Shown here in pieces: positions 16,501 through 55,004 of a stretch of 64,000 bases of DNA. The notes under the pieces are model-generated. The model saw nothing but the letters and a program-made list of their open reading frames with translations, had not been told where the DNA came from and did not search any database. This DNA is from Scatophagus argus (taxonomy: Eukaryota; Chordata; Actinopteri; Scatophagidae), in NCBI RefSeq assembly GCF_020382885.2, contig NC_058503.1, positions 23,030,535 through 23,094,534 of the forward strand. The letters are read 5' to 3'. Position numbers and translations under genes: made by a program. The number at the start of each line of letters is the position of its first letter. The stretch's first letter is position 1.

Positions 16501-18994
16501 GAGGAGCAGCTCATCACGGGTTGATAACAATACAATAAATCAGCAGACATTAATGCTATTCTTATTAGCATGAACGTTAGCTGTCAAAGAGCCGGACGAG
16601 GCCCACAGGCTGACAGTCGTCCCACAACACGATGGTATCACGATATTATTGTGATTTTCAATGGAAATGTGAGCATTGTGATATGCAATGAACACACAGG
16701 AAGTCAGACACCAGGATGTCCTGCTGCATCCGGTCACATGTAACAGTATGCAAGCCAGCAAGCTTTCCTGGCTCTTTAATCCACAAAGCTCTGCTCAGCG
16801 AAAGTGACGCCACAGCGACTGAGTCAGCGAGCCAGCACAGACAGACGGCAGCTGATTGGCTGCGATCCACATCTCAGACTTTTTGATTTCAGATTTCAGA
16901 CAGACAGATAGACAGACTGCAGATGCAGTACGTACTGCACAGCCAAAGCACCATGGAAACCTGCTGTGCTGCAGAGGTGAACACACTGCAGTTACCTTCT
17001 GTCTGTCAGCGTCGGAGCTCCGCGTCTCCTCCAGCTCGTCCAGGTCCCAGCTCTGGAGCTGACGGCCGGACTCGTACTCCCACAGCTTCACGGTGCCGTC
17101 CTGTCAAACACACACACACACACACATACACACACACACACATACATCCGTGATGACACATTCACCAAGTCTGCTGATTCTTTCCTCTTTGTTGAGTAGA
17201 TTTAGCGAGCAGGTGGCAGGTACTGCTCTTCTGCTGCTCATTTGGAAACTTCAGGTGTTGAACTTGAGAGGCACGACAGTGATGGAGTGGGTGGTGTTAA
17301 CTCTGGGAACCACACACATACCCCTGATCCTGACAGCAGCCACTGTGGATGACTCTGTGGGACCAGCAGAGCACTGACAAACCTGCCGGGAAGAGAAAGC
17401 GGGGACACGAATGATGGCGAAACTCTTTGTGTGCAGGTGTTTGGTTCTCCTGAGGTTCAGTTACTCACTGCTGATGTCCCAGGCAGAAGGACTGGATGTT
17501 GTAGGGAGTCCCGAGGTGACTCACTCTGATCTTTTCATCGCGGTCGGCTGTGATGATGTACCTGTCGTCCGGCGACACGGTCTGAGAGACGGTAGGAAGT
17601 GTGAATCGTTAAACACTGACGCAAACTGATTCCCCAGAGTGCAGGTGTGACGGCTCTCCTGGTGTTTCTTACCACAGCTAACAGCATGGACAGGTGTCCC
17701 ATCTTCAGCTCGCCCTCCGTCTGCGGCTCCACCACCGAGAAGGAGTAAACGTCTCCTGATTTGTCAGCCGCCAGCAGCACGTCCTCAGCATGGCTGAACT
17801 GCAGGGAGGTGCACCTCCTCACCACACACCTGTGTAACACACACACACACAGGACTTATCAACGCACCTGTCAGACGGATTACCTGTCCAGAGTGTGAGT
17901 GCAGAGCTGAAGTCGGACCTGACGCTGATGCAACGCCACGAAGGCTCACAGTGAAACAGGACCAGCCTCTTGTTGTCATCAGTCAGTGCCAGCAGCTTCC
18001 CGGATGGCGACACGGCGAAGGTGAGGATTTTGTCACTTCCTGTTTCCTCTGAGGCGCCGTCATCGCTGATGACAGAGGAGACAAACTGAGAAACCTCCAC
18101 GTTCCCAATGCACTGCATTATGATGTCCCTGCTTTCTGTTCCCATAAATCTACAGGTCATATTTAAGAGAGCGGAAAGCTTGAGATTTATTTGAATTTGT
18201 TGTTTACGTTTTTCTTGCATATTTCAACCTTTTTGTACTAAAGTAAACATGTACGGCACATCAGTAAATGTACTCACTTACCTGTTGTGATCCTCATTCG
18301 TGCTCTTCGGCTTCTTCTCGGCAGCGCTGCAGTCGAACACAAACGCTTCCCTGCAGCAAAGAGCAGAAGAGTTCAGTGAGGACGACTTCCTGTTCGCTCT
18401 CAGAACCACCTTCACCTTCAGTGATGTTTGCTATGAGCTGAGATGCGTTCACCTGACGCTTTCAGGCACATGAAATCTGCTGTGATCACGTATGGCTGTG
18501 ACTAAGGGGTTACTGTGGGCAGGGTTGCCAGATTGGTCGGTTTCAGACGCTCACCTGAGAAACCGTCTGTGATTGGCCCATCTGTTTGTACTAAACTTCT
18601 TTTAAAAAGGCAAAAAGTCAGGAGTGTTCAGTTTGCTATGAGTTTCTTGTCTCTTACAAGTGCGGAAACAATTAATCAGTCAAACAACTCAAAAGTCTAT
18701 CAGCAACAATCGGTTTTGATATTCTGAAGTCATTTAATAAACAGCATGTCATTCGGCACCACACATGAGGTGACGACGATGAGATGAAAACTTTATCTCC
18801 GTGCTCTGCCGGTCAGTGGAGCAGGCTAACACTGCTAGCACGGCAAAGCTAACCCGACACGGCCGCAAACGACTCACACATGATGGCGGGAACGTTTAAA
18901 GGTGCTCAAACCTGCTCTGCTTGGTGTGAACCGCGACCAGTTTGGTGTCGCAGGTGAGAATAATCCACTCTCCGCAGAAGCCGACAGCAGCCAT
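13520..18994 (-). CDS. wdr4: WDR4, non-catalytic WD-repeat subunit of the tRNA (guanine-N7) methyltransferase
   Basis: It partners METTL1 to make m7G46 in tRNA in the nucleus. Exons, 5' to 3' on the minus strand: 18912-18994, 18282-18350, 17919-18065, 17673-17829, 17469-17581, 17322-17382, 16996-17100, 16222-16283, 15069-15249, 13890-13959, 13520-13704. The sum is 1233 nt, 410 aa (human 412). Landmarks: [10 protein letters not shown] start, [55 protein letters not shown] (WD blade), [31 protein letters not shown] and a C-terminal [17 protein letters not shown] helix with a Lys-rich tail. An upstream in-frame ATG at 19010-19012 would add six residues; I prefer the ATG at 18992-18994. Two donors are noncanonical in context (GTCCGA after 17919; GTTTGA after 18912) but are required by the reading frame. 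Convergent with pde9a, divergent from the ndufv3-type gene at 19748. Confidence 0.95.
17103..17147 (+). repeat. (CA)n microsatellite in wdr4, read as (UG)n in the transcript
   Basis: A CA/TA-interrupted dinucleotide run just upstream (minus-strand sense) of the wdr4 exon 16996-17100. Only TTTGACAG separates it from the exon. Confidence 0.93.
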
Positions 18995-19747
18995 GGCTTC
19001 GTGTGTTGTCATGCGACGGCGGCGCACGCGGGGAGCAGTGATGTCGTCGCGGAAAAATGACGTAGCTAGCCAAACAAACACACACGCCCCCCTACCAGAA
19101 AGTACAGAATGTACACAAGAGCTGCTGGTGTGTGTGTGTCCAGGCAGTGAAATGAGCAGCTTTCCTCCACTAAATACACCCGCTCAGCTTTCCGAACAGG
19201 AGAATAAAAACAAAGTGTGTCAACACCGCAAATAACGATGCCGAAGAGGCCAAACATGGCGCCAAAAACACTGAAATCTATCAGAAAACCCTATGAACGA
19301 AATGTCCAGCTCATATGAATGACTGAGCAGACCCCACAGTGTCGGATAAAGCAGCACACTCCGATGTTAACCACATATGAGACATTAGCAGGCAGTGCAG
19401 ACTGACTGATGCGGGGCTGTTTGTCACGCAGGGGGCGGAAACTGTCACGTCCACGCGTTACATAAAAGGTGAAAGACTCGGGCTGAGCTGTGACCACCAC
19501 AGAAGAAGCTCACTTCGTCTCCACACGGTAACCACCGCTTTTCATCTGTTCATTTGATACTGTGAGCACCTGACGCTGCGGGCTGCGCCTCGTCTCGCTG
19601 GGCACACAGCGCGTGGCAGCTGCTGCGCTTCTGCTCGTCACGCTCGTGTTTTGTGGTTTCGTGATTTCTCTCACCACACGTTGAAGACATTTTGACGTGG
19701 TTGTCGTCCCTGTTGTGATTGTGTGTCTGTCCCCGATGCACAGAAAG
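18995..19747. promoter_or_regulatory. Head-to-head promoter region between wdr4 (-) and the ndufv3-type chimeric gene (+)
   Basis: The two start codons are 754 bp apart and point away from each other. The stretch has several CpGs (CGGCGGCGCACGCGGGG near wdr4) and no TATA box. At the right-hand start codon AAAGATGGCGGC fits the YY1 consensus, common at nuclear-encoded mitochondrial genes. Short 5' UTRs are assumed; transcription starts cannot be read from sequence. Confidence 0.55.
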
Positions 19748-22700
19748 ATGGCGGCTTCCCTGCTGAGGATTGGACGGCTCGGTTGTGTCAAGGTAAACAA
19801 CATCAAGCGTTAACAACGTGAATGTGTCGGTGAGCTTTCATGGCTTTGCTGTAAACACTGAGCCGGTGCGTGTCTGACGCTTTGGACCGGGTCTTCAGCT
19901 GTCTGTCGGTGTCGTCTTCATGGCTGCAGTCAACCAGAATAATGTGTCTGTGAAGCTGCTCTTCTAATGGCGGTTTTCTCTATGAACACTTTGTGCTTCA
20001 CATCCACCAGTTCAACACGAACTGGTGGATCTGAACCACAAAGCTGAGCCACTTATTAAACAGGTTTAAACCAGACTCGCAGGGCTGGCAGCTGAAGCTC
20101 CACTCAACTGCTAATGAATGTGACTTTATGAGCACACCGAGTGCTCACAGCAGTTCTGGGTGTTTTTCATATGAATCTATGAGCAGGGCTTTGTTTGTGC
20201 AGGCTTGCTAAGACCTCACCAGTTAAAGAGGTCACCATTAGACTGGAAACTGCCCCTGCATGGACAGGATTACACTCCTTTTGACAAGCCACCGAAACAC
20301 CTGCCGTGCACTCAGACGTCTCAGAGTCTCCAGTGCTCATCCCACAGTTTAAGACGAAAAGACAGAAAGACGGAAAAGCGTCTGAACCTGGTAAACGTGC
20401 AGCAGACGTCCAGCGTTTAAGGAGTTCAGTGCTTTTATTGGTTTGAACTGGCAGCCAGTCAAACTTCTAAAAACATGATCAACATTTTTGATCAGAGAGG
20501 CCCCCTGAGGTTTATGTTCTGTTGTTTTGGTAACATAATGAATACACAGCTCGTGTGTGTGTGTGTGTGTGTGGTCAGTGTCTGCAGGCTGGCAGTTGGA
20601 GCACTGTGAGCAGAGCGCCAGCAGCTGCCGCCCTCAGCACAAAGTCCGGGGGATCCAAGAAGTCTTCGAAAAAGGACAGAGCAGGTAGGTTTCTGAGCGT
20701 CGCTGCCGCCGTCACGACACGCCGCTGAGCCTTCATCGCCTCTTTAATGAACTGTGGTACAAATGTCACAGATTTGGTGGAGGAAGAAACACGTCAGGCT
20801 TCAGTGTAGGTGAAAATTGCAGCTTCAAGTTCAGTAGTTACCACAGCAGCCTTCTGAAGTGTCTGCACGTCACCGTTACTCTTCACCTGATTTGTTTTTG
20901 GTTGGATGTCATATTTGCCAAAGACATAAACGTGTGAACAGATTCATCTCGTGCCTCTAGGATCCCTCTGAAAGGTCCAATAAGTGATGTGATGATTTCA
21001 TGGGGTACAAACGTAGGTTGAAAGACCAGCAGCAGACGTAACCTACAGCTAACCTACAGCTAACACTTTGTTAACCCCAAACATGATGGGGAAGCCCTGT
21101 CTGCTGATCCCAAAAGGAAAAGAATGGCTTTGGAAAACCTCTGACATCCGTTAAAGGCTCTTGTTCTTCTCAGTATTCGTAGGTTTTCTTTGACAGCAGG
21201 AATAAACGTTGGTGAGGAGGAATCACTGGGGCAAACGAAACCCAGAAGGCCTCCGTCAGCTTGATGGATTCCTTAAAGTGTCTCCACATGTAGTTATGAA
21301 TATTTTGCAGAAACCATGTGACAGATAGTTTCAATAGAGAAATCATCCATTCTAGAAGCTGCGTTTTAGCTTTCGTGGTTGACACGATCTATCTTGACAC
21401 CTTGCTGGGGAAAATGGCCGTACAGAAAAGGTCGTCCCCCGTCCCCCGTCCCGCGTGTCCTGGTGGGAACATGTAACATGCAGCAGCTGCTCGGTCATGG
21501 CCTCGGGTGAGACAGCAGTGTTGTGAATAAAAGAAACATATCTAACCTGTTGATACTGGAACTGGCTGCTTTTGGCGTTCGTGGCATGCTAGATGTTTGC
21601 ACCACAGTTCATCATATTCACTTTTGACTTTCCTTCCACAGGTTTTGAAGGTTGCGTCGCTGCTCACTGCCGTCGCTGACCTGTCAGCTGTGGTTTTAGG
21701 TCCTTTGGATGAGAATATATTCCAGTTCTTTTTAATATGAAGTAGTTACGGTTTTGTTAAGAGTTTTCTTGAAGCTTTTTACAATACATTTGTTTTATTC
21801 CTTTGGCTCATCACAGACTTGTGATGTTTTTCTTTTCTACTTGTTCTGTTTGTATTTACCTGTAAAGCTGTACATGTACTAGATGCCACCATCCAGGATT
21901 TTGTGTGTAAAATGTTGTTGCCATTTTGGTAAATGTGAGTTTATCATGGGCTTTTTGTCATACAGTCATATGCGTTTGTTTCAGGAAAATAATGCATCTT
22001 GTCTGCTTGCCCTCCTTCGTCCTAGAAAAGCACCAGGCTAAAACGTACTTCGATATAGAGAAACTTGTCCAGCACAAGCAATATGAGCTCCCCAAGAAGG
22101 AAGTTTCTCCAGCAGCAGTCGCTGCAGCAGCAGAAGCTGCAGCTAAACCAGTTGCAGAGCCCACACCCTCTGCTTCTGCACCTGAGGCTGTAGCGGTCCC
22201 CCCAGCGGTTGAAGCCACCCCGACTTCTGAACCCGCTTCATCAGCTGACGCCACACCTGCTGTTGAAGCGGTCTCTGAATCTGCTGTTGAAGCTGCACCG
22301 GTGGTTGAGGCTGTCACCGAGGTTGTAGCTGAAGTGGTTGCTGAGGCAGTACCAGCGGTTGAGGTTGTTGCAGAAGCTGCAGCATCTATAGCTGAAGCCG
22401 CTGCCCAAGTGAGTGAAGCTCCTGCTGAAGCTGCTGCAGCCCCAGATCCTGCAGCTGAAGCCTCTGCTGTTGAAGCTGCCCCAGCCCCTGAAGCTGCTCC
22501 AGCAGAACCTCCTGTTGAAGCAGCTGCTGAGGCCACACCTGTTGCTGAAGTTCCTGTTGAGGCTGCTCCTGAAGCCCCTGCTGCAGAAGCTGCACCAGTT
22601 GTGGAAGCTGTCCCTGAAGTTGTCTCTGCTGAAGCTCTTCCAGAAGCGACTCCAGAGCCCGTGGCCGAAGCTGCCCCCACAGAAGCCGAAGCTGCCCCTG

Positions 22701-25700
22701 CAGAAGCCGAAGCTGCCCCTGTAGAAGCTGAAACTGCCCCCGCAGAAGCCGAAGCTGCCCCTGCAGAAGTGACTCCAGAGCCCGTGGCCGAAGCTGCCCC
22801 TGCAGAAGCTGAAACTGCCCCCGCAGAAGCCGAAGCTGCCCCCGCAGAAGCGACTCCAGAGCCCGTGGCTGAAGCTGCCCCCGCAGAAGCTGAAGCTGCC
22901 CCCGCACAAGCGACTCCAGAGCCCGTGGCTGAAGCTGCCCCCGTAGAAGCGACTCCAGAGCCCGTGGCTGAAGCTGCCCCCGCAGAAGCGACTCCAGAGC
23001 CTGTGGCTGAAGCTGCCCCCGCAGAAGCTGAAGCTGCCCCCGCACAAGCGACTCCAGAGCCCGTGGCTGAAGCTGCCCCCGCAGAAGTGGCTGCGGAGGG
23101 TATCGAGGAGCTGGTGGATCCCGCTCCAGTCGTAGCTGAAGCTGCAGGAGAGGAGCTGCAGGCAGAGGCCCCAGCTGAACCCGTTGAAGCACCTGAGGGT
23201 ACACACTACAACCTCCCCCCTCCCCCACAATCCTTCTCTTTGCCTCTGTGGACCCTGCAGTCTACCAGCAGTCATTTTCATGTCCGTTTATTTGAACACA
23301 GTAGTTGTTTGTGATGAGTGTAAGGATAAACTGTAGAGATACCTGACGTCACAAACGCACATTTTTTTTTGGTTTTAGATTCACACAGCTTGTTCATAAT
23401 AGTCCCTCAGTGTTACCTGATGCATTTTAGCCCATAACCCTCAAACAGTATGTTCCTTTCTTCATGCCATGTCCACTCTTGTCCCACATGGCTCGGCCTT
23501 CTCTCATGTAGCTTTAGTTCATCTGATCTGTCTGATGTGTTTGTGCTGCTTCAGCCATTTTACTTTTGTTTGTCCTGACTGCACAGCATTTTGCTTTACT
23601 TATTTATTTATTTATTTTTTGCTTGGCTTTTTCCTACGCGTTTTTGGTTTTCACTTCGTACTAATGCTCGTTTCTTTTGTTTTCTATCATTTCCTCCCGG
23701 CTTCCTGCATAAGTGACTGTAACCTGTTCTTCCCTCCTTTTTAATTCCCACTCTTCTTCCCCAGAGGGTAGAAAGTCCCTCTCCGTCTCCGTCTCCGTCT
23801 CCCGGTGTTGTCTTGTCGTTTTCTGAAAGTGTCCCCCCTGACTTTGTGCTGGTGATTGTTCAACACTAAAGATAATGTTTTTAACAGATAGATAATGTTG
23901 CTCTTGTTTCTGCTGGTTAAGGAAAATGTTAAGGTTGCAGCCGTCACTCGCCATCTTGTTTATTGTTTGTTTGTTTGTTTTTTTCGCCGTCCTCCCCCTT
24001 CCTTCCCTCACACCTGCTGTACGTGTTCGGGAGTCGCATGTGATCAGTCCCTACATGTTTGATCCGATTGTTGCGTGTATTTTGTTAATGGATAATGTGT
24101 AAACTTTCCTTCCCTTTCTTTCATGGTAAAGGCACTTGGTGAGATTGCACCCTGGTTGCTGTGTGTGGAGTCACAGTTGAAGATTTTAAATCGGTTCTTT
24201 GGACTTCGCTGTTTTTGTTTGACGAGTCTGTTGGCCGCCGGTGCCTGACAGCAGCCCTGTGAATGTGTATCCTAGCATGACCTGTCACAGCAACCTTTTA
24301 ACCCGTCGACTGACCTGACCTTTCACATGTTCTTTCCTCTCTGACCCCTGTAGCTGGCTACTCTGTCCACCACCGCCAGGTGCTGTTCTCTGCATGAGGG
24401 TTATGGTTAAGAGACTGCACTGGTTAATTATTTGTTCAAGTCAAATGGACAGTTGATAGCATGGTCCTGGTTTATGAGGATTTTTCTGTGAAGGAAAACT
24501 AATATTTCTTCTCTTCCTGTGACTCTCAGTTCAATTGGACCCAATTCAGAAGCTCTTTGTGGACTCCATACGACAGTACTCCACCAGAAGCCAGTAAGTC
24601 TCACCGCCTTGGCTGGATTCAGAGCTGCTTCAGCTCATCGAGAAGAAGCGGAGGTTTAAACTGGCTGTGGGTTTAGCACAAGCTCAGATCACCCGAACGG
24701 CAGCCAAAATATACAGTGGGAGTGACCTTAAAGGTGCAGTCTGTAAGATACAGATGATCTGTGTTGCAGAAGCCAGCGTGTTAACCAGCTAGCCCTGCCT
24801 TGCCCTCTCTTGTAATGCCACTTTGTGCCTGTGGAGGCACTAGTCTGACAGCCCCGAGCAGCTATTTTCATCAGAGGAGGAAGGCGTTTCCTCGGGGGAG
24901 CATGATAAATGAGAGGGCGTGAAAGTTGCTCCCTTTCCAACAACTAAACTGGAATAAATGAAGCATAGCTCTGCATTTGCTTTGTGTTCAATCCATCAGA
25001 ATTACTGAACTAATCAGAGGTTTGACGGTTCAGCAGTGTCCTGCTGGTAAAATGCATTTAGGTGAGAGAATGATAACTGATCTTTGTTGTCGCCGTCCTC
25101 CTGCAGGGCTACTGGAGGGCTAGTCGATGCAGGGTCAGAGTATGAAAAGGCCTTGGCAGACGAGATATCAAAGCTTCAGAGACTCTATGGCGGAGGAGAC
25201 CTCACATCTTTCCCAGAGTTCAAATTCACAGGTGAGCCAAGTCAAACTACTGTCAGACGGCTAGTACAACTTGAAGTTTTCCTGTAAACAGCAGTACTTG
25301 GGATGGTATTAAACACCCAGACTAAATGTCAGCAACAGCACACCTTTACTGATCAGCGTTTACTCGTTTGAGTGGCTGAGATTATCAGGCGTTTGTTATG
25401 ATAGTGGACGCTTTGAAGGACGTCATCCTGCTTGTGCCATGTGGTCACTTACCAAAAAGAGAAATTAAGACCATTCATTTATATTTTAATGTGTTTCCCT
25501 GGTAACACGTGAGGGGATAACCTGGAACAATCATCACTGTCCCATAAGATTCAAGTGCAATGGAACGACAAACCTCAGCAGAGATTTCAAGTTCGCTCTC
25601 CTCTGACTCGGTCACGTTATGCTAACATCAAAGTCAGTAACAAACAGTAAATATAATCTGATAGGACAACAAGACTGTCAGCTATCCAGTCATGTCACTC

Positions 25701-26550
25701 TCCCCTCCTCTTCACCAGCAGATGATGGACACTGCAGGGTTCCAATCAGTGTTCACATTCATTAGTTATTTCAGTGAACAGACAGTTTGACTGGAGCTGT
25801 TTAGTAGGTGTCCATTATTGGGAATTAATGGACACCCTGCAACCAATCAGAATCATGGGTGTGGACATTGATGGTCCCCAGAGGTTTATTTGTAGTATTT
25901 TTAGTAAACTGATAATTAACTGTTTAATTAACCATTGATCAGTGTAGGGGTCATTTTCAAACCAAGTTCAAAAAGAGTTCTGTTGCTGACTCAAGTTCCA
26001 GGATCCAAAGAAATAAAAAGTGGAAATCTTCCATTTGAATCACGTTTTGCAATTTTATTTGACAAACTAAAAGATATACACAAAATATAATTCTGGTTCC
26101 AGATCTGTTAGCTGACAGGACGCGACACGGTCAGAAAACCGTGAGACTCCTGGCTTCTCAGGTCATGTCAGTATCCACTAATTAATCACCTGCCACCTTG
26201 GCGGCAACTGCAGCTATGTGCTTAAAGGGGCAGTACCTATTTTAATCATTAAAGTGCAATGACACTAAATACTAAGTTTTGTTTTTTTTGGTTTTTTTTG
26301 TTAAACCATGTACATCACTAATCCTAAATTCTGAATTATTCCAATGGGGAATCTAAATGAAATATCAAATATAAACACATAACATTATAGTTGAGTCTGT
26401 AAAGAACACATCTGGCACCTCCAATCAGGTTTTAGTCTGAATATTCTAACCGTAGCGACTTAAACGAATCGTCGTCGGACGTGCGCTGACTTAACGACTC
26501 TGCTTTGTGTTTGTTTAGAGCCCACGCTGGATGAAGTTTCCCAGAAGTGA
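19748..26550 (+). CDS. Chimeric NDUFV3 / ATP synthase coupling factor 6 gene (first ndufv3 tandem copy)
   Basis: Exons: 19748-19792, 20588-20684, optional 22026-23198, 24530-24593, 25107-25231, 26519-26550. With the long exon the product is 511 aa; without it 120 aa. The first exon (MAASLLRIGRLGCVK) matches the first exon of the downstream ndufv3 ([15 protein letters not shown]) and looks like a mitochondrial presequence. The last three exons read LDPIQKLFVDSIRQY, SQATGGLVDAGSEYEKALAD, FPEFKFTEPTLDEVSQK, clearly the mature ATP5PF (coupling factor 6, peripheral stalk of F1Fo ATP synthase; human LDPIQKLFVDKIREY). The NDUFV3 C-terminal domain is absent. All junctions fit: exon 2 and the long exon both end in phase 1, and the F6 exon enters in phase 1. 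Predicted: a mitochondrial F6-like protein carrying an NDUFV3 leader. Alternative: a separate F6-like gene with an unseen first exon in 23.2-24.5 kb. I found no presequence there. Confidence 0.78.
20552..20573 (+). repeat. (GT)n microsatellite upstream of exon 2 of the chimeric gene
   Basis: About 22 nt of GT ends 14 nt before the exon at 20588. The intervening sequence is GTCAGTGTCTGCAG. Confidence 0.93.
22026..23198 (+). CDS. Giant Ala/Glu/Pro-rich optional exon of the chimeric gene
   Basis: This exon is 1173 nt (391 codons), phase 1 at both ends, so skipping keeps the frame. The acceptor is CCTAG at 22024-22025. The earlier TTTCAG at 21984 would hit a stop. It begins EKHQAKTYFDIEKLV then becomes low complexity. 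From about 22640 it holds seven repeats of TPEPVAEAAP spaced 13, 20, 27 or 41 residues apart, that is 13 plus multiples of a seven-residue AEAEAAP-like block. The 3' end ([20 protein letters not shown]) is nearly identical to the end of the long exon of the second copy, and both use a GAGG/GTACAC donor. Human NDUFV3 also has a large alternative third exon. Reading through the donor gives a short tail ending at 23314. Confidence 0.85.
24530..26550 (+). CDS. ATP5PF-like (F6) terminal module, three exons
   Basis: Exons 24530-24593, 25107-25231 and 26519-26550 encode about 73 residues, covering almost the whole mature F6 subunit. Compared with human F6 they keep LDPIQKLFVD, the GG-VDA-SEY core, and the FPxFKF segment before the terminal tail. 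The tail is replaced (EPTLDEVSQK) and shorter. There are no stops or frameshifts, and splice sites are good (GTAAGT, GTGAGC), which argues against a pseudogene. The AATAAA at 26772 follows. In the second ndufv3 copy this position is taken by the NDUFV3 C-terminal exon. Confidence 0.88.
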
Positions 26551-26771
26551 ACATGAGCGCTTTGCTGTTGGAGTTTTTGTCACCTTTTTCCTGAACACCT
26601 GTGCTCTGTGGCGTGAGCAGCCTGCTCAGCGTCAGAGTTACGAACTGACCCTTTAGCTTCGTGTGTGACAGTAGAGCCTGTTTACCTGAATGATGTGCTT
26701 TTTTCTGGGCAGACGCTGTGAAATAAGCTTCATGTAGATGATAGCTGGGCTGAATGTAGAAGAAGAAAAAC

Positions 26772-26777
26772 AATAAA
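26772..26777 (+). terminator. Polyadenylation signal of the chimeric gene
   Basis: AATAAA lies 222 nt after the stop codon of the F6 module. Confidence 0.7.
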
Positions 26778-26939
26778 GGCCAGTTCATATTTGGTCTATC
26801 TTTCTTTCACACATCAACATCACAAATAAGGTAAGATAATCTTTTAATCAATTTTCGGTCACCACAGAACTGTCTTCCAAAGTATTGACATCGAGATAAA
26901 GCCTCTGTTATCTGTAAGCTGCAATTTAGACAAGAAACC

Positions 26940-27880
26940 ACAGATGAAAAAAGACTTCATCAACTTCACGCAAAAGATATTTGATGCTAAGCAAGCAGAG
27001 CCAGCTCCACCACTAACAGAGTGCCAGGAACGTTGGTATCTTTCCTTATTCGACGTTTACCATCCACGCAAGCCTGAGCAGAAAAGAGCAGAGTTCGATT
27101 CCAGTGCTAAATATGAAGGAGATTCTCTTAATGACATGCTCCTTTGTGGTCCTGATCTGAACAACACCCTCATCGGGGTCCTGAACTGAACAACACCCTC
27201 ATCGGGGTCCTGATCTGAACAACACCCTCATCGGGGTCCCGATCTGTTTCTGCAAAGAACCAGTCGCAGTTACTGCAGATGTGCAGTAGATGTTTTATTG
27301 TTTCACAGTCTGCGAGGAACATCGAGATTTTTTGAGGTTCTTGTGGTATGAAGACAACGACCTGCAGAAACCAGTGAAAGAGTTTTGCATGGCGGTTCAT
27401 GCATTTGCACAGTCTCTCACCAGTGGTTACTATTTACTACGAGCTGCCTCAGAGGCAACAGAGTCCACTCCCAGGACAAGAGAGTTTGTCATGTGCAACT
27501 TTTAAGTGGATGATGGACTTCGTTCCCCACTGAAACAGATGCTATCAAGGTCTTGCTGACGTCTCAAGAAATGCTAGCTGAGTCAAACATCACATCACAC
27601 AAGATGGCATCTAACAGCAGCAGCGTCATGCAAGCGTTCCCCACAAAAGACTGGCCGAAAGGTGCTAAAGTAATAGATATTGAAGGAGAATCGCCGCCAT
27701 TACAAAGAAGCCTCTCAGCTGGAACCTGGTGACAGACAGCCTCACCTTCTGTGTTTCCTCAGAGGAGAAACCTTTGACTAAAGGAGGCGTTCTGCTCCTC
27801 TCCTTTGCCTGCACAGTTTACAGCACTGCCTGTGAATATCGCCATCATCTGTCATGTCCTCTGTAAGGAAATGACCAAGG
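26940..27880 (+). mobile_element. Degraded BEL/Pao-type LTR retrotransposon pol fragment
   Basis: The reading pieces resemble BEL/Pao polyproteins: RWYLSLFDVYHPRKPEQKR, SLNDMLLCGPDLNNTLIGVL, then in another frame EEHRDFLRFLWYEDND and FCMAVHAFAQS, then KMASNSSSVMQAFPTKDW and PPLQRSLS. The reverse transcriptase region is broken by a 29-bp tandem repeat and by stops. No LTRs were recognised. It lies between the two ndufv3 copies. Confidence 0.75.
27150..27246 (+). repeat. 29-bp tandem repeat, three copies, inside the BEL/Pao remnant
   Basis: The units start at 27150, 27179 and 27208, with a fourth partial copy (TCCCGATCTG) from 27237. Each contains CTGAACAACACCCTCATCGG. 29 is not a multiple of 3, so the expansion breaks the pol frame. 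Confidence 0.9.
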
Positions 27881-27894
27881 TATTTGACTTTTTC

Positions 27895-28310
27895 ACAAGT
27901 AGACCAGCACTGCTTGTGGAAAAAATAACCAAATCATCCACATACATCAGTGACCAATCATACACCCGGTATTACAGGCTGTGATAGATCGTCCATATAA
28001 AGGTTAAGTATGCTCCCCTGTCTGACACCATTACTCACACTGAATGGGGCACCCCCATTTAACCTGCACCGTTCAATTGGCATACTGGTATGGCAGCACC
28101 CTCACTATGCATACAGGCACACTTAGTTCAACCATTTTAGTAAACAGTTTTTTATGGTAAATTCGATCAAAGGCCTCAGAGGCATCAATAAAACACACGA
28201 GAACTGACCAATTCTGATTATTAGACTTACTTACAATTTCTTTAAGAGCATAAATACACAAGTCAGTGTCATGGTTACGCTTAAAGCCAAACTGATTATC
28301 TGGAGAATTA
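27895..28310 (-). mobile_element. LINE (non-LTR retrotransposon) reverse transcriptase fragment
   Basis: The minus strand encodes FGFKRNHDTDLCIYALKEIV, VLVCFIDASEAFDRI and, further on, LMYVDDLVIFSTS. These are the palm motifs of a non-LTR reverse transcriptase (DAxxAFDR and the YxDD box). It is frameshifted and truncated at both ends. Confidence 0.8.
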
Positions 28311-28560
28311 AGATAAGATAATCCTTTGTTAGTCCCATAACTGGGAAATTACAGTGTTACAGCAGCAAACAGAGCATAGAAGGTGCAAAGCATGCAGGGA
28401 TAAGGGAAGGATGAGCATTCAAAAAGAATAAATACACAGGAAACAAGTACCAGCTGTACACAGTACAGAAAAGAAAAAGACTATTCACACTAGAGTCCCT
28501 CAAGTTATGATTAGTGGATGGATTGATTATTGTACCGATTTGTTTCAGGGACAAAGTATG
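28306..28560. repeat. Probable retroelement-derived repeat (AAGATAAGATAATCC...)
   Basis: It starts with AAGATAAGATAATCCTTTG and GTTACAGCAGCAAAC, a sequence type I associate with common teleost retroelement tails. It adjoins the LINE fragment. The border and family are uncertain. The remaining stretch, 28560-29905, is intergenic with no gene I can support; a short C+G-rich patch lies at 28900-28960. Confidence 0.4.
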
Positions 28561-29905
28561 TATGTACTGATCCTAGTAGTAGTGTTACATGAGTAAGGAC
28601 ATGTCATGTTGTGAACTATTCACTGCAGCTGTTATCACTGAAACACGACATGAGCTGCAGTTCGTACTACATTAATTAAAATATCTCATACTGAAAGGTG
28701 AAAACACGAGCAGCACAGAACCGTTCCGCTTTACACTCAGGTCGCTCCACTCTCGCGAGAATGTCACTTGGTTGCGCAGCTTTCCGAGATTTTACAAAGT
28801 ACCCATTTTCACAAAATAACTCACTCACCTGTTTCGGTGTAGGGCGATGGTGGGCTCGTAAAGGGTCCTGACCACAGGGCAGAGGCTGGTTTGAGCGGGG
28901 AGGTTAAAAAGCAGAGGACAGCGCCCGCGGGTCGTACCCCTGGCCCGCGGACCGATGGAGCATTGAAAACATCAGATATGTTTTGGAAGTAACCGCTGAG
29001 CTAAACCTCCGCCGTTTGCGCAGCTGTCTTGTGCATTATATATTTTCATCTTCAGTAAAAGACCTGCACCGGAAATACTTAGTACTTACTTTATAGCACG
29101 TAATTTTACTTATGTATGTAACAATAGAAAGTTCTAAAAAGTGAACCTGAAATATTTGAAGGAATTGTCGGCCTGTTTTCTGTTGTGCTGTTCTCTCGCA
29201 TACAGTGTAAAAGCTAGTTTTTACTGGAGTTGACTGAGGTTTCATTGTTGATTATTATCTTCATTCATCGAGCGATTGTTTTGTTTGGAAAAGTCCAAAC
29301 ATTATATCAGAATAGTTTCATTTAATTAATTTTCTGTCATCGTTTCAAATGTATAAACTGCTGGATGGTTTGATTTAAGGCAAAACATTTTGTAAAACTG
29401 TTTTTTGTGCTAAAAGCTTCAGCTGACTGAGCTAAACTTGCTGCGGCAACACTAATTCCATGCCGTATTATTTCATTTATTTATAAATCTTTATCGCCGC
29501 AGATCCATCGCACCCTGGACTCAACCTGCTCCACCTTCTGCCCTCTGGGGGGCGCTACAGAGCCCTGTGCACAGAAACAAGCAGACCCCAGAGCGATTTA
29601 ATCCCACAGCAATCGTGAACAATTAAATCGGTCCTCCAGTATCAATAACCTTATTACATTAACATATACACTTACCTGCAAATTTTATATTAAATATTTG
29701 ACAGTTTAAGAGTATGTGTGTAACACTGAGTGCAACTTAAACTTAAACTCAAATTCCTTGTGTGTATTTGCATTTTTTCACAGTAAAGCCGATTCTTGGA
29801 TTTGATTTAGAGACCGCTTGGCTTTGGTTCGTGCCAGTATATCGTTGTGGAACAGATGAGTGTCCCTCTGAGTTTCCCACCGGACCATAATACTAGGAAC
29901 ACAAA

Positions 29906-32900
29906 ATGGCCGCCTCTTTGCTTCGGTTAGGGCGACTGGGTTCCCTCAAGGTAACATTAAATATATTACTTCTCTGACGCTTTACATTTGTTGTGTTTTG
30001 TCACCAGACGTCCGCGGATGTGAGGGAGCTGACGGCAGGCGGGTGAAACCGCCGAGCGGAGGCGGACACACTGACGGCAGTCCCTGACTTTAACCCCGCC
30101 TGACGTACCTCTGAGCGAACACCGTTTTATAACCGGTTTCAACAAAAAAGTTCAACTGCTTTTAACATAAGTTTTTAATTTTGACATTTTACCACATCAT
30201 CCGCTATTTGTTGGCAAACTTCATCAGGTTAGTTAAAACAGCTAACAGTGGCTAAAAATGGCTAAGTCGTCACTGACTGTGAGGCGGTCAAAACACAGGT
30301 TAAATATACCTGTACAGTCACTTCTCCTCATAAGATATTATGGTGGACAACAACAATAACTACAGCTATGAAAGGTCAATTATAATAAGTATCATTTTAT
30401 CAAATTATTTTTCTTTCAAAACAAGATTTGACTGAATAGAAGCTTGTCTTGTGTCATCCCTTGCGTTGTTAACATTGCACGTTATCCAACAAAACATGAC
30501 ACTCACTAAATAACAAATAACATGTCATAAACAATGTTTACTATATCTTACATTTATCGGTTGAGTATACGACATCTCTGCCTCTTGATGTCAAACTGTG
30601 AAATGACATCCTTTTACCACATGAGGATGCAACTCGCAATTATTTTCGTAATCAGTTAATTACTCATGATGAATCCAATAGGCCTTTAAGCCATATAAAA
30701 GAAATAATCATTGCAGTTTCCCAGAACCCAAATTGACATGTTCAGTCAACTGGCGGACTGATCACACACTTCCTCGTGCTAGTAACAAAAGGTGCGTGTG
30801 TCTTCCTGCAGTGTGGTCAGGTGGAGAGCTGGGGCGTCCTGAGGGGTCGCTCGGCTGCTTCGTTCTGCACTCAGGCTGAAGAACCACCGAAGACCCCCAA
30901 AAAGACAAAGGCTGCAGGCAAGAGTAAGTCATCTGCTGTGTTAAGGAAGTTCTGCTGACTAGTTGATGTTGTGCTTTAATCATGTTTGACTCATTTATTT
31001 TCATTGTCTCCGTAACGTTATTCATTTTATATTTGTATATGATGTCAGAGCTTAACATGTGACTCTTTTCTTGCAGTGGCATAACGTCAAAAATTTGCTT
31101 TTTCTTCCAGTCGTCCATTTAATCTGGAATAATTTGTGGTTAAAATTAAGTTTGCATTAAAGTGCAGCTGATTGTGACTCTAAATACTATGACAGTATCA
31201 AGGTTAACAGTGAGTTTATGTGCTTTCTTGAATGATTATTGTGTTGCGGTCATTTCATTTTTCTGTTTTTGTGCAGTTTTGAAGTAAAGCGAGTCGTGCC
31301 ACTTCACTCGAAATGGTTGTTATCATTTAACTGCTTTTGTCCCATTTGCCGTTTTCCTCAGCAGCAGAGGCTCCAGATGAGAGAGCTGCCTTGCTAGCCT
31401 ACAAGACTGCTGTTGCCTTCCCAGTTAAACTTTCAGAGCCAGGAGTTTTCCCAGCACAGTCTCTAGGTGTAACTGAACTGTTGGTCAGCTCAGAAATGAC
31501 TGCAGCTGCTGCTCCGCCTGCCGCTGCTCCCAGTGAACCAGCTGCAGCTGAAGCTCCAGCTCCTGGCCCACATGTTGCTGAGGTTCTCGCTCATGCAGCT
31601 CCATCTGTAGCTGAACCTCCGGCTCATGCAACCTCAACACCAAACGATGCAGTCCCACCCACTCCTGCCTCCTCTGAGCCTGCACAACCAGCAGCCGACG
31701 GATCATCCTCTTCCTCCTCCAGCGACTCAGATTCTGACTCAGACTCAGACTCTGACTCTGACTCTGAGGACGAGAAGTCAGGAGTGAAGACTGAAACAAA
31801 GATTTCACCTCCTGAGGTGTCAGACTCCACTGTGAAAGGAGAAGCAGAAGTCCAGGAGGTCACTTCAGAAGTGAAGGAAGACACTAATGAAGCTAAGACA
31901 GAAGTTCGACCGGAGCCTGAAGCTACTCTTGCCTCTACTGAGGCTCCAGCAGCAGCAGCAGCAGCGGCATCTGCCACCGAGGAGGCACCCATTCTCGCCT
32001 CTGAGGAGTTAGTCGACTCTGCTGCTGAAATGCGCACTGCCAACGAAGTTGCTCCAGAGGGCACTGTGAGCAACACACAAGTCTCAGCTGAAGCAGTGGA
32101 AGCTACTCCAGAAGTCAGAGAAGATGTCGCCTCTGATGCTGTCCCTGGTGTCCAGACAGAAATTCCAGTTGAAGTGCTGACCAAAGCTGCAGCTCCAGAA
32201 AGAGCACAGACTGCCACTCCAGTAGAAACTGCAGAGCCTGCCTCCACTGAAGCCCCAGCAGGAGCTGCTGAAGAGCCTGTAGAAGCCGTAGAAGCCCCCG
32301 TGAAAGCTGCTGCAGAGCCTGCAGAGGCTGAAACTGCTGAGGTTGCAGCTGAAGGTTCAGAGCTGGTGGATCCCGCTCCAGTCATAGCTGAAGCTGCAGG
32401 AGAGGAGCTGCAGGCAGAGGCCACAGTTGAACCATCTGAGGGTACACACCACACCTGACTCTACCTTTTTCTTTGTGGACCTTTGAGCCCCCCAGATGAC
32501 CACACTCTTCTCTCTATTCCTTTTAACACATTCTGCATAATGTTAGGAGGCATCACACGCAGTAGTTTCTGTGTTTAAATAACATCTCTGGATCCTCTTT
32601 TTTTAACTTTTGCTCCATCGCTGTGACATCTGACCTCCCTGGCCTGGTTTTCAATTGTTTTGCATGAGGTGGATGTAGTGTCTTTTAGCCATGCTTGCGG
32701 GGCTATTTGGTGCATTTCCCGCATTTTCCTCTTTCTTGAACATTACTTTCACTTGCATTGCGGAAACTGAAGCTTAGACTTGTCCGTCTTTGTCCTTCAG
32801 CCGCCTGCACGTCTGTGGTGCTGCTGTTACTGTTTGATCAGGGTGATAACTCCTGCTGCACACTGCTGACTGCTCTGTCCCTCCTCCCTGTTGCCAAATG

Positions 32901-34473
32901 CATCTTCACTCTCATAATCACATGCTCACTGTGGCTCATGTATGTCTGTTTGTATGAATTAGGGCTCACAGGTTAATGTTGACTTCATGTTGAGGCTACA
33001 GGTAAACATGCAGGTGTTGGCCTTCATTGTGCCAGGTAATGCTATTGCTGACAGTAACGTTAGAGTGCACATGTTTGGCTGCAGTGAGGACGCGTCCCTG
33101 ACAGCAGCTGGATGAGCAGAAGCTGGGAGTGGTTGGAGTCAGAGGAAGTACTTCAGTATGAGTGTCATAAAAAAAACACTAAGAATACAACGAAAACATA
33201 TTTTCTGTTACCTGCGGTGCTACTCATCCGTCAAACTACACGTGGTGCTAAGAGCTAAAAAAACAAACAAACAAAAAGAATAGTCACCGACAAGCCTCTC
33301 GTCCACAAGTAGATTCTTTTTGCGTGGTGATACAGAAAGAAAATAGTTCCTACATGAAACTGCTAACAACAAGCTCTGGATTATCTTGACCGACCGGGTC
33401 ATGATTTAATGGTAAGAGACGTTGCTGTTGGATTTTATCACTTTGAGCACCACAAGTGAAGTGTCATCTAGTGAAGTGATATCTCCAAAACTATCTGGAT
33501 GGGTGAACGGCACCACAGGTGAGAGGAACCCGATGTAGTTTTTAATATGGGGTGAACTGTCCCTTTAACATTCCAGCACCTACAGCCCTTTGTTGCACTT
33601 CTCTGACCAGCTGGCTCATTCTGCTTCCGGGAACAAACCCCACACCTCACTGGTCACTCTGGTCTTTAGTTGTTCACTTCTCTCCTTTTTTCTTACTGTG
33701 TGAATCCGTTTTTCCCCCAGAGGAATTTGAAGTTGATTAATGAAAAAATGTGTTTTTAATATTTGTCTTTGTGGTTGTGGATGTGTAAGATTTATTTCTC
33801 TGCCTTGTGTTGCTTATAACCTTAATAACAGTCACAGCATGATAAGAGGGTTTCTGCAGACAATATTTTAGAGTGAACTGGTGTTTATGAAAGAATATTA
33901 ATATGATTTTGACTTGCTGCCCCCGTTTTTAAATCCATTTCATGCGCGCCGCTGCCAGCGCACCTCCAGTATGGGTTGCCTTTACTGCCTGATCCTTGAG
34001 GCCTTTCACACCAGTGTGTCTCCACACTCTGTTGGGGGTAATGCAGCCTGCCGCCACAGGAAATGCCCCACCGTAAACCACCTTTGTCAGCATGTGTGAA
34101 TATGTAAATGTGCTGTCCCTTCAAAAATCTTTTCAGATATCTTCAAAGCAAGCCACATTTTGCTTTCCATTTGTAGCTCAGGTCTTAATTACAGTTTTGG
34201 TTGCTTGAAATTCAGGATTGTATTTGGTTAATCGTGTTCTATTTCTGTCTTAATGCACGATTTTTGTACTGGCAGCGTTCTGAAAGCTCTGTTGTTTGTT
34301 CTCCTCCTTCTGCAGAGGCTGCAGCAGCGGCACCTCCAGAGCCAGAGGAGCCTTTCGATAACAGCACTTATAAGAACTACCAGCACCACGGCTACCATCA
34401 CTACACATTTGCAGACCTGGACGTGGAGATGGCCAAGTTCCGTCTCCCGCAGCCCTCCTCCGGCAGACAGTAG
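29906..34473 (+). CDS. ndufv3: NDUFV3, NADH:ubiquinone oxidoreductase subunit V3 (second tandem copy)
   Basis: This is the accessory subunit of the N-module of mitochondrial complex I. Exons: 29906-29950, 30812-30923, optional 31362-32441, 34316-34473. The product is 464 aa with the long exon or 104 aa without it (human short form 108 aa). It has an N-terminal presequence ([15 protein letters not shown]). The conserved C-terminal domain starts [17 protein letters not shown] and ends [11 protein letters not shown], matching human EPFDNTTYKNLQHHDY and FRMPQPSSGR. All internal junctions are phase 1 except the first (phase 0). The acceptor of the long exon is a triple CAGCAGCAG, allowing one- or two-codon variation. 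The poly(A) signal follows at 34603. It is the tandem partner of the chimeric gene at 19748, from which 3.4 kb of retroelement-rich DNA separates it. Confidence 0.95.
31362..32441 (+). CDS. ndufv3: Giant optional exon of ndufv3 (long isoform)
   Basis: This exon is 1080 nt (360 codons), symmetric phase 1, so it can be skipped. It begins with ordinary sequence ([20 protein letters not shown]), then runs Ala/Pro-rich. A Ser run followed by eight Ser-Asp pairs and SEDE (about 31702-31770) comes next, then acidic Glu/Val/Thr-rich sequence. It ends [20 protein letters not shown], the same end as the long exon at 22026-23198. The 5' halves of the two exons do not align by eye. This corresponds to the large alternative exon of mammalian NDUFV3. 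Confidence 0.85.
33190..33568 (-). repeat. Dispersed MITE-like repeat, second copy
   Basis: On the minus strand it starts TTAAAGGGACAGTTCACCCC at 33568 and shares ordered blocks with 6435-6860 (TTTTGGAGATATCA, GATAATCCAGAG, CATGTAGGAACTATTTTCTT). It lies in the last intron of ndufv3. The far end is undefined. Confidence 0.6.
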
Positions 34474-34602
34474 ACGAGCTGACCTCGCTGCAGACCTTTA
34501 TCTTGTTTAAAGATGATGGCGATGGTGTTGTTCCCCGTGACGTATGATCATCACTCCACCTGTGCGAGCTGCATGAAATTCTGCTGTTAAAAATCGTATA
34601 TT

Positions 34603-34608
34603 AATAAA
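34603..34608 (+). terminator. ndufv3: ndufv3 polyadenylation signal
   Basis: AATAAA lies 130 nt after the ndufv3 stop. Confidence 0.8.
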
Positions 34609-34959
34609 GTCCACAACAGAGAAATGAAGTACAGTGTGATTCTCTTATTAAAAGGAATTTGTGTGGAAGAAAAGATATAGGAAAAGATCAAACGCTTCTG
34701 TTGTGCTGCTTTCTGCCTCCAGGGGGATCATTTGAATAGAGCTGAGTGTGCAAGTGGTTTATCTGTGTTTCTGTCTTAATGATTACAATGTTTATTCCTC
34801 TAGCCTGCCTGCTTACAGATAACGTGCTGATCGTCTTCGCTCTATGCGTTGTTTAGGGAAAAAAACACTCATGTGTTGCCATGTTTGTGTACTCGTGTTT
34901 GTATGATGAGAGAATATGCATAAAGGATTGTAATGCCTGAGATATACATAGAAAATGTG

Positions 34960-35158
34960 TTAATGAGGGCAGCGAGTGTGTTTGCCAAGCAGCGGGTGCA
35001 GAGGGACTCTTCAGGCAGCAGGACGTCATGTCTCCGCCCACCTCATAAATATTCATGGGCCGAGCGCTGCTGCGTGCCCTTACGCGATGACGCAACGCGA
35101 CAACTGCGGGTCCCGATTGCTGCAGCCGCTTGTCAGTGTGACGAAGATTGGCACTCAG
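34960..35158 (+). promoter_or_regulatory. pknox1: Presumed pknox1 promoter and noncoding first exon
   Basis: A CpG-bearing patch contains ATAAATATTCATGGGC (35045) and TACGCGATGACGCAACGCG, a CRE/ATF-like TGACGCAA. It ends in a strong donor, CACTCAG/GTAAGC at 35158/35159. The first coding exon of pknox1 is 1.57 kb downstream and lacks an obvious promoter, so an untranslated first exon here is the simplest reading. The intron 35159-36716 has no other gene I can see. Confidence 0.5.
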
Positions 35159-36724
35159 GTAAGCTGTCACTCAAAATCCCTCTTTTTCCGTTCCCTATCA
35201 ATCAAACAATCTGGGCCGCACGCAAAAATGCCCCGGGGCGAGGAGCGCGGACTTAGTCAGGGCAGCAGAGGGTGTTTTTGGAAGGGAAGCAGAGGCGCCA
35301 GAGCTCTGGGAAGAATTAAAAAAAAATCTGTATACAGGGGAGGGGGGGTAAAAAAATATGTCGGCGTTTTGGGGGCAGAGGAGGATTGTGGAAAAGCAAA
35401 GGGCGAGAGCTAGAAACGAGGCCCGACAGTTGTAACGTTAGCGCGGAGGGGAGGGGAAGGAGAGGGCAGCTGTCCCCGCTTGATTGATTGACTGATGTGG
35501 GAAGGATTTGAAGATCAACCGGGCTAGCCTGGTGTGCAGCCAACTCTTCTTAATATCACTGCAATCGAGTTACTGCACACGGCGTACAAGAAATGCATAT
35601 TCATTTAAAATGTTAATCGAAAACGCTAAAGCGGCCGAAGCTGTCTTGTTATTTTGGCAAACGGCTCGCTTTGTATCAATCCGCAGCGGGGTCTTTTTTT
35701 GTACCTGGCTAGCTAGCTGGGTTAGCTTGTTTTTTGGCAGTGATTCTCCTGCTAAATATGGCGCTTTGTATTTTGGCTGCACCGTATCAGCATGAGAAAC
35801 ACTTTTAAGTTAACAGTTAGCCAGCGTGCTAATGTTAGCTGTAGCTCGGCCAGACGGTCCCTCTTTTGAGTTAACCTCAGATTTCGTTCGGAAGCTAGCG
35901 GGAGTAACGTTACAGGCTAGCTATCTGTTGTGGAAAAACAAGGTTAGCTTTAGCCGAGCTTTTTGTTTCCTGCGACAAACACAAACGTTATGTCAGTTAG
36001 ATGATAGTTGGCTAATGTTAGCTTCGAGGGTGTAAAAAAACTTCATGTTCCCTGGCCGCCACAGATAGTGTGAGAAGCTAATAGTGAGCTAAAAGCTAAG
36101 TTCATCGTGGTGGGTGTGTTAAAAGCAGATGCAGGGTAACGTTAACATGAGCTCGCTATTTATCACAGCAACGTACCTCAGCGTCGGTATATGAACCTCC
36201 TATGTTTTATTTAGGATCGGTATGGACAGAAATGTTTGTTTATTTCCAATAAGATACATCGAAATAAATCGTTAAACGTTACTCCTTTTTTTGGAGGGTG
36301 CCCACATTCCCTTGTTTTCCCCCAAACTGTGTGCAGATAACTTTACCATTAAAGATGTGATGTGAGATTTTTGGTGAAATTAAGTCTTTTAATTTCTTCT
36401 GCTGTTGTCCTACGTGTCCTCCAAACGGCACACGTTCAGTTTTTGCTCATATGAATGTCAACTTGTAATTCCTGACCCCGCGTGAAGTCGCATTAACCAG
36501 CATCCATGTTCAACATCAGTTCTTAGCTGTGCAGAAATAATCATTTTCATCCCCCCTCCGTCACACCAGCCCAGTGTACAAAGCTAATAATCTTTCATCC
36601 TGACATCATGACTGTTTCACCAATAAACAACACTCTAATGATGTAATATGTGCATTGTGTAGGTTGGCCACCTGTCCCTGCTCTCTATAATGCCCCAGTG
36701 TTTGCAGCATCTGCAGTGAACGTG

Positions 36725-39700: not shown

Positions 39701-40777
39701 AAAGGTATTAGAGTGTTGAATTTAATGGCTGCCTCTTTAACATCAGTGATTTGAAACATCCGTCGAGCAGCCTGTGAACTGATGTTGTCAGTTGAAACGC
39801 TGCACCTTTTTTTAGCTGCAGGATGGCCGAGAGTTGTGTTCTGACTGTAGCAGAAGCTCGTTTCTCTCCTCACTGCGGTGTGACATGAGGAAAAGTCTGC
39901 TGACGCGGGTCCAGCCTCCTCTGGCTGTTCACCGGACAGCAGCTGGTCAGGACAGGTGTCCGCCACGCACCTGAGAAGTAAAGGCGCTTGAGACTGTCAT
40001 GAGAGCTCAGTCATCTCAAAGTGGACGCGCGTCACTTTGAGCAAAAACAAAAGTCTCGTTGAACGCAGCGAACCTGCAGAAAACTACGAGAGTGAAATAC
40101 TGTAATAAAATCGGAGCGAGCAGTACGTCAGAGGAATAGAAGCTATGAAATGAAGCAGGACAGGGCAAACATTTAGCTTAAGAAAGACTTTGCACGCTGC
40201 TATGAACTCTTCTCATGTCTTTTAGATGGTGAAAGCCATCCAGGTGCTGCGGATCCACCTGCTGGAGCTGGAGAAGGTGAGCGACCTGTGCAAGGACTTC
40301 TGTAGCCGCTACATCGCCTGCCTCAAGACCAAGATGAACAGCGAGACTCTGCTGAGTGGAGACCCGGGCAGCCCGTACTCCCCCGTCCAAGGCCCGGTCC
40401 AGAACTTCTCACCCACCAAGACTCAGGTGTGTATCGGCGGCATCATCATCATCATCACCACTGCTCATAGCATCAGCTTGCTTCTTCACATCGGGAAGCT
40501 AAATCAGTGTGCTTTAAAACACGCTCTGTGCTCTGCAGACCCCCAGCTCCATCTCGGGGACACTCAGTCCCCAGGGGCAAATCGTGGTGCCCGCGTCAGC
40601 CCTGCAGCAGGGCAACGTAACCGTGACAGCAGTGAACCCCACCCAGGTGGTCGCAGGTATGTCATCGTGGCATACAACTCCTCCCTCAGGTACTGTCCTG
40701 TTGTAGCTGCAGCTGAGATACCATAATGTACCAGTGGGACACTCTGATCAGAGAGCTCTCTGCAGTGGATTAGACTA

Positions 40778-47410: not shown

Positions 47411-55004
<7,594 letters not shown>

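Follow-up and report, generated by a model that had tools for sequence, protein, structure and literature searches.

A coupling factor 6 paralogue with an NDUFV3-type front and an optional disordered exon in Scatophagus argus

One gene of the fish Scatophagus argus begins in the manner of ndufv3, whose product belongs to complex I, and ends in the manner of atp5pf, which encodes coupling factor 6 (F6) of ATP synthase, and the locus raises the question of which protein it makes and how its two halves came together. The gene, here termed gene A, lies at 19748-26550 on the forward strand of the window, that is, the whole 64,000-nt stretch analysed (contig C11 23030535-23094534; all coordinates given without a contig name refer to it). 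Gene A is intact, with GT/AG splice sites and exon joins in frame. We consider it probable that gene A is a long-retained F6 paralogue with an NDUFV3-type front, an alternative stalk subunit to which splicing would add, or from which it would omit, an acidic disordered tail. An initial annotation of the window was right in nearly every detail of the gene. Its features are as follows.

19748..19792, forward strand: coding exon 1, mitochondrial-type leader MAASLLRIGRLGCVK; in frame, GT donor
20579..20684 (or from 20588), forward strand: coding exon 2, end of the leader and basic linker; AG/GT ends, phase 1 end
22026..23198, forward strand: optional giant exon of 391 codons, Ala/Glu/Pro/Val-rich; phase 1 on both sides
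22026..22075, forward strand: beginning of the giant exon, EKHQAKTYFDIEKLVQH, its first codon shared with exon 2; resembles the start of exon 3 in a second chimera on contig C10 (KKAKPQPAVDIATLLEH)
23108..23181, forward strand: tract at 96% identity (71/74 bases) to 32360-32433 in ndufv3; 3′ ends of both giant exons
24530..24593, forward strand: F6 exon a, VQLDPIQKLFVDSIRQYSTRSQ; from translation and F6 structure and Pfam matches
25107..25231, forward strand: F6 exon b, ATGGLVDAGSEYEKALADEISKLQRLYGGGDLTSFPEFKFT; phase 2 start and phase 1 end, as in atp5pf on contig C24 and the C10 copy
26519..26550, forward strand: F6 exon c, EPTLDEVSQK followed by the stop; from translation
26772..26777, forward strand: possible polyadenylation signal AATAAA

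Exons 19748-19792, 20579-20684, 24530-24593, 25107-25231 and 26519-26550 join into a short product of 123 amino acids (aa), and inclusion of the giant exon (22026-23198) gives a long product of 514 aa, in both cases without an internal stop. The initial annotation had three intact F6 exons connected in phase to the leader exons, which holds at every join. Its short product of 120 aa is obtained through the alternative in-frame acceptor 20588 of exon 2, but 123 aa may be the true length because acceptor 20579 corresponds to the acceptor of the neighbouring ndufv3 gene. The giant exon, in phase 1 on both sides and hence skippable, would supply the insert of 391 residues that had been proposed for the long form; its frame is open, its composition low-complexity and Ala/Glu-rich with a net charge of -77 over the 391 codons, and no Pfam family matched it. 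A coding tandem repeat with units of 21, 39, 60, 81 and 138 bases occupies 22664-23087 within this exon, and its length possibly varies between individuals.

In the short form, the Pfam family ATP-synt_F6 (PF05511) is matched by residues 52-114 with 90.3 bits (cut-off 27.9), and a solved F6 chain by residues 52-121 with an expectation value (E) of 1.6e-19. Twelve sequences of solved structures were matched at E <= 0.1, ten of them named F6 (E 1.6e-19 to 1.8e-15) and two being repeat proteins (E 0.008 and 0.02). The strength of the Pfam and best structure matches excludes chance as the source of F6 homology in this part. F6 meets the b, d and OSCP subunits in the peripheral stalk. Of 34 F6 positions that do not vary between canonical fish F6 and two mammalian chains, gene A keeps 27, which makes binding of its product to the stalk plausible as judged from sequence. 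Like the canonical ATP5PF/ATP5J copy on C24, gene A has the mature F6 domain interrupted by two introns (phase 2 and phase 1) at the same residues, but the usual leader is replaced by two NDUFV3-type exons, and an optional insert precedes the domain.

Counterparts of these two exons are seen in the gene that directly adjoins gene A. This gene B (29906-34473) is ndufv3 (PF15880, 65 bits), with a short form of 104 aa and a long form of 462 aa, and is composed of the following exons.

29906..29950, forward strand: exon 1, aligned with exon 1 of gene A
30812..30923, forward strand: exon 2, aligned with exon 2 of gene A
31368..32441, forward strand: giant exon with a Ser/Asp string; acceptors 31362, 31365 and 31368 all in frame
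34316..34473, forward strand: C-terminal exon, PF15880 at 65 bits; the sole NDUFV3 domain over the cut-off found in the genome

Leader exons 1 and 2 of gene A align to those of ndufv3 with a score of 103.5 (shuffles 7.2 ± 8.1; 0/5000 as high), whereas the same leader has no likeness to that of canonical atp5pf (1075/5000 shuffles reach the score). Together with the F6 match, this upholds the description of gene A as an F6 paralogue whose leader is of NDUFV3 type. Most of the signal lies in exon 1 (score 58.0; shuffles 9.9 ± 5.3; 0/5000 as high); exon 2 is weaker, its score of 45.5 being reached by one of 5000 shuffles. The first exons had been called near-identical, which is true of the protein (12/15 residues) and not of the DNA (31/45 bases). 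The proportions of synonymous (pS) and non-synonymous (pN) differences in exon 1 are 0.79 and 0.11 (15 codons, with only 13 synonymous sites), and since the synonymous sites look saturated at so low a pN, genes A and B probably stem from an old duplication, with selection preserving the leader. Matching ends of the giant exons, also reported initially, were found at the 3′ ends only, as the tract at 23108-23181 listed above; a wider match at 23023-23210 (76.6% identity) takes in the splice donor. Given the diverged exon 1, the 96% identity of this island suggests that it is probably the product of recent gene conversion.

Adjacency, homologous exons 1 and 2 and a symmetrical giant exon, disordered, acidic and with a recently shared 3′ end, thus link gene A to NDUFV3, but these leader exons and a skippable giant exon alone do not make it an NDUFV3. 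As the initial annotation had noted, gene A lacks the NDUFV3 C-terminal exon and with it the complex I-binding part, which contacts NDUFV1/NDUFV2: a genome search for the domain placed only gene B over the cut-off, four other matches falling well short of it (E 3.3 to 6.0), and tblastn revealed no relic of the terminal exon beyond chance in gene A or in 80 kb around the C10 locus, its matches being gene B and two chance-level C10 matches (E 0.085 and 0.22). Gene B further carries a Ser/Asp string at 31703-31783, for which gene A gave only a chance-level match on the opposite strand (E 0.43); the available part of PMC5293009 reports a similar string of serines in the long isoform of mammalian NDUFV3.

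Whether gene A is the only F6 gene of this fish was answered by searching the genome (570.7 Mb in 48 contigs; introns were not modelled, and exons of very small size may escape detection). The F6 family search gave four exon matches at three loci. The locus on C24 is a canonical atp5pf, which has a leader of its own, MALHRLFQLSSVLRS..., and F6 in three coding exons, a gene whose presence elsewhere in the genome the initial annotation had proposed looking for; gene A is an extra F6 copy because this gene exists. About 7 kb away lies an exon that we take to be JAM2-like. In the human genome, JAM2 and ATP5PF stand in this order.

The third locus is a second chimera, on C10 at 1931006-1927421 (reverse strand), consisting of MAAALFRGRLCLR, an exon 2 of the same design, two disordered exons and three F6 exons. 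Its long form has 285 aa, and short forms of 148 and 116 aa are possible. It shares with gene A the NDUFV3-type leader, the disordered middle and the F6 exons, and differs in that the disordered part is split into two open exons of 32 and 137 codons with another composition. The C10 leader scores 48.5 against gene A and 40.5 against gene B (0/5000 shuffles as high in each case) and has no likeness to the canonical F6 leader (2531/5000); taken by exon, the comparison with gene A is weaker (exon 1 24/5000, exon 2 13/5000 shuffles as high), and leader A resembles leader B more than it does the C10 leader. Over 17 ungapped residues, picked by eye, the opening of the giant exon of gene A and that of C10 exon 3 score 24 (2/20000 shuffles as high), and over 31 residues 20/2000 shuffles are as high. 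The giant-exon ends are not clearly conserved between the two genes (31.0; shuffles 18.8 ± 7.1; 285/5000 as high). The point at which F6 is entered and its phase are equal, gene A being one codon longer. Because both later introns match in place and phase in gene A, C10 and C24, the F6 exons arrived with introns and not by way of a retrotransposed copy.

When the genome was searched with the 123-aa product, seven matches came up: four exons at the three F6 loci, exon 2 and the first F6 exon of gene A, and a chance match on C24 (E 0.24). A search with 34 residues of the giant-exon start (22026-22075) found only gene A. Among 381 pattern matches in GTDB genomes and 23 in IMG/VR, tblastn revealed no relatives, as expected for a fish gene.

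How old, then, is the chimeric layout? The initial annotation had proposed that one of two tandem ndufv3 copies locally exchanged its terminal exon for an F6 module. In its place we put a chimeric layout of greater age, represented at least twice in the genome, the C10 gene having the same layout and no NDUFV3 relic being found. In the F6 part, pS and pN are 0.68 and 0.29 for gene A and C10, and 0.74 and 0.23 for gene A and C24 (46 to 48 synonymous sites); here, as in exon 1, synonymous sites are at or near saturation while the protein is conserved, which argues against an assembly join and probably against a recent local swap. Identity in F6 is 37/70 between gene A and C10, and 42/71 and 40/70 between these two and canonical F6. 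The F6 tree rejected none of three topologies (approximately unbiased (AU) test, 0.30, 0.34 and 0.72), the best joining C10 with canonical F6. A piece that we take to be of pdxk type occurs at two places, beside the C10 chimera and on C11, which supports kinship of C10 and C11. Four further neighbours speak against a date at the teleost duplication or are silent on it. An intersectin piece has its other copies on C1 and C19, and the FGF piece of the window has no other genome match at E <= 0.001. A Meis/PKNOX match on C10 was considered as a second pknox1 and rejected, as it reads as Meis; matches to the adenosine-deaminase family lie on C7, C9, C11, C12, C13, C14, C18 and C24, with none on C10. 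The layout is likely older than the C10/C11 split. That it also predates the teleost genome duplication is only plausible, since pdxk fits, four other neighbour checks add nothing and the tree is undecided. As for NDUFV3 itself, Guerrero-Castillo et al. 2017 reportedly placed it in metazoa, with the extra exon confined to vertebrates, and Bridges et al. 2017 are said to have found none in jawless fish, contrary to the former.

A transcript from another fish bears on the joining of the two halves. In the accessible part of a Japanese flounder RNA-seq study, component comp69204_c0 is annotated as ATP synthase coupling factor 6 (PMC4267937). One of its listed primers is the complement of AGATGGCGGCTTCCTTGCT and fits gene A at 19746-19764 in 18 of 19 bases, where 0.01 matches with three or fewer mismatches are expected in the window. 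The same primer has four mismatches at ndufv3 exon 1 and at best five and six in the C10 and C24 stretches, and eight primers for other genes, of 18 in the flounder table, have at best four to six mismatches anywhere in the window. As far as this table goes, the match suggests that another fish has a transcript read as F6 with a gene A-type first exon.

Several observations weigh against the interpretation of gene A as a stalk subunit with a splice-controlled tail. Its F6 part has lost seven of the 34 otherwise invariant positions, and the C10 copy 11 (keeping 23/34). The C10 leader, C10 exon 3 and the gene B leader were absent from the matches of the genome-wide protein searches, so that their likeness comes from pairwise tests alone. 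The second flounder primer was not placed in gene A (best eight mismatches, in the modelled mRNA), and the link between leader and F6 in that fish is the component annotation alone. The flounder authors describe Sanger-verified splice isoforms for primers 'C1' (PMC4267937, in the part available), taken here as table entry AC1; because the matching primer faces upstream from the start codon, this variation probably concerns the 5′ part and not the giant exon, and the flounder match does not prove that the giant exon is skipped.

The most serious rival, which we hold unlikely though well worth weighing, is that gene A is a plain extra F6 with an unusual transit peptide, its giant exon being skipped or neutral padding with no regulated tail. 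The giant exon is indeed a low-complexity repeat array whose end is not clearly conserved in the C10 copy, but its 391 codons stay open in frame, its start resembles that of the C10 copy, and that copy also keeps open disordered exons. Padding also fits poorly with the long isoform of NDUFV3 being dominant in mammalian liver and brain, as the available sections of PMC8762328 report. NDUFV3-type leader genes might, alternatively, have captured F6 exons twice, making the two chimeras independent. The F6 tree, which by itself does not group gene A with C10, would allow this, as would their F6 parts, each more identical to canonical F6 than to the other, and a leader A nearer to leader B; yet the apparent A-B gene conversion at 23108-23181 can explain the latter likeness, and an identical double capture, with the same entry point and phase, leader type and similar start of the disordered part, is so unlikely that we judge this improbable.

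Still harder to accept is that transcription of the F6 exons starts from a first exon of their own, with no splicing to the NDUFV3-type exons at all. The canonical F6 leader found no match in 18500-36000, including between 23198 and 24530 (tblastn, E <= 1), and four matches in the C10 stretch (E 0.40 to 0.77) are taken as chance; frames and phases fit, C10 has the same layout, and the flounder F6 component, in the part of the source available, holds the primer site of gene A exon 1. An assembly join, which the initial annotation had allowed for as a refutation, or a decaying gene is barely credible in view of a second chimera on another chromosome, GT/AG sites, an open frame, a possible polyadenylation signal and near-saturated synonymous sites in a conserved protein.

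We therefore return to gene A as an F6 paralogue with an NDUFV3-type front, for which mammalian NDUFV3 offers the model. The available sections of two papers describe short and long isoforms of it through inclusion of exon 3, with the complex I-bound part common to both and the long form adding a disordered N-terminal stretch (PMC8762328, PMC5293009). In human fibroblasts, PTBP1 bound to the third exon guards against its skipping, according to the accessible text of PMC11749709. Gene A would keep this front design and swap the anchor, F6 taking the place of the NDUFV3 C-terminus. If it is expressed in S. argus, as we infer, its leader would direct import into the matrix and then be cleaved; with the giant exon skipped, the product would be close to a normal F6, extended at its N-terminus by a short basic stretch, and with that exon included it would be an F6 bearing some 390 residues of acidic, disordered tail. 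Either form may compete with canonical F6 for a place in the peripheral stalk of complex V, and splicing would then set whether ATP synthase bears a tail, in the way that splicing of NDUFV3 decides this for the complex I tip. Since little NDUFV3 sequence would survive cleavage of the leader, nothing indicates that the short form touches complex I.

The surroundings of both chimeras were also inspected. We judge the gene content of the window to be typical of ray-finned fish. Between genes A and B, a remnant of a retroelement-like protein, VYHPRKPEQKRAEFDSSAKYEGDSLNDMLLCGPDLNNTL, lies at 26848-27186, its motif presumably that of BEL/Pao-type elements, with a 29-base tandem repeat at 27148-27246. 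Upstream of gene A, frames that we take to be WDR4-like occupy 16798-18223 (one piece was scanned, with no Pfam match), and downstream lie Meis_PKNOX_N exons (38801-40723), trypsin-like exons (48603-48944) and FGF exons (56591-57001); the order WDR4-NDUFV3-PKNOX1 is presumably that of human 21q22.3. The C10 chimera is flanked by what we take from the protein sequences to be a pyridoxal-kinase-like gene on one side and, on the other, an intersectin-like gene, which has its 3′ end towards the chimera and of which one SH3 domain was confirmed with Pfam. About 26 kb from it, an open frame of 633 residues (C10:1899145-1901043) looks to us like a fish NACHT/NLR immune gene.

A description of such a chimera was not found in titles and abstract openings of the open-licence literature, partly among the matches listed, and predicted fish protein databases may well hold it under the name of F6 or NDUFV3. 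In the part available of a tilapia survey of 93 nuclear oxidative phosphorylation genes, six duplicated and three triplicated genes are named, F6 not among them (PMC11900210). Fish annotations of F6 and of ndufv3-like genes can thus be mixed up, and although duplicated respiratory-chain subunits are common in teleosts, a subunit of one complex joined to the front end of a subunit gene of another was not found described in the sources covered. With a retained pair of F6 paralogues that have a complex I type leader and an optional tail of 390 residues, ATP synthase could be decorated differently in some fish tissues, and such a pair would show that exon shuffling can pass a tail under splicing control between complexes, from I to V. 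Gene A also offers a direct test of what the tail of the NDUFV3 long isoform, whose role is unsettled, does on another complex, and the chimera bears on the origin of NDUFV3. More tentatively, and with considerable doubt, one family may supply a spliced disordered matrix tail to both the complex I tip (as NDUFV3) and the ATP synthase stalk (as chimeric F6), the terminal exon being an interchangeable anchor in a layout that predates the split of the C11 and C10 copies and possibly the teleost duplication; NDUFV3 could even descend from such a chimera.

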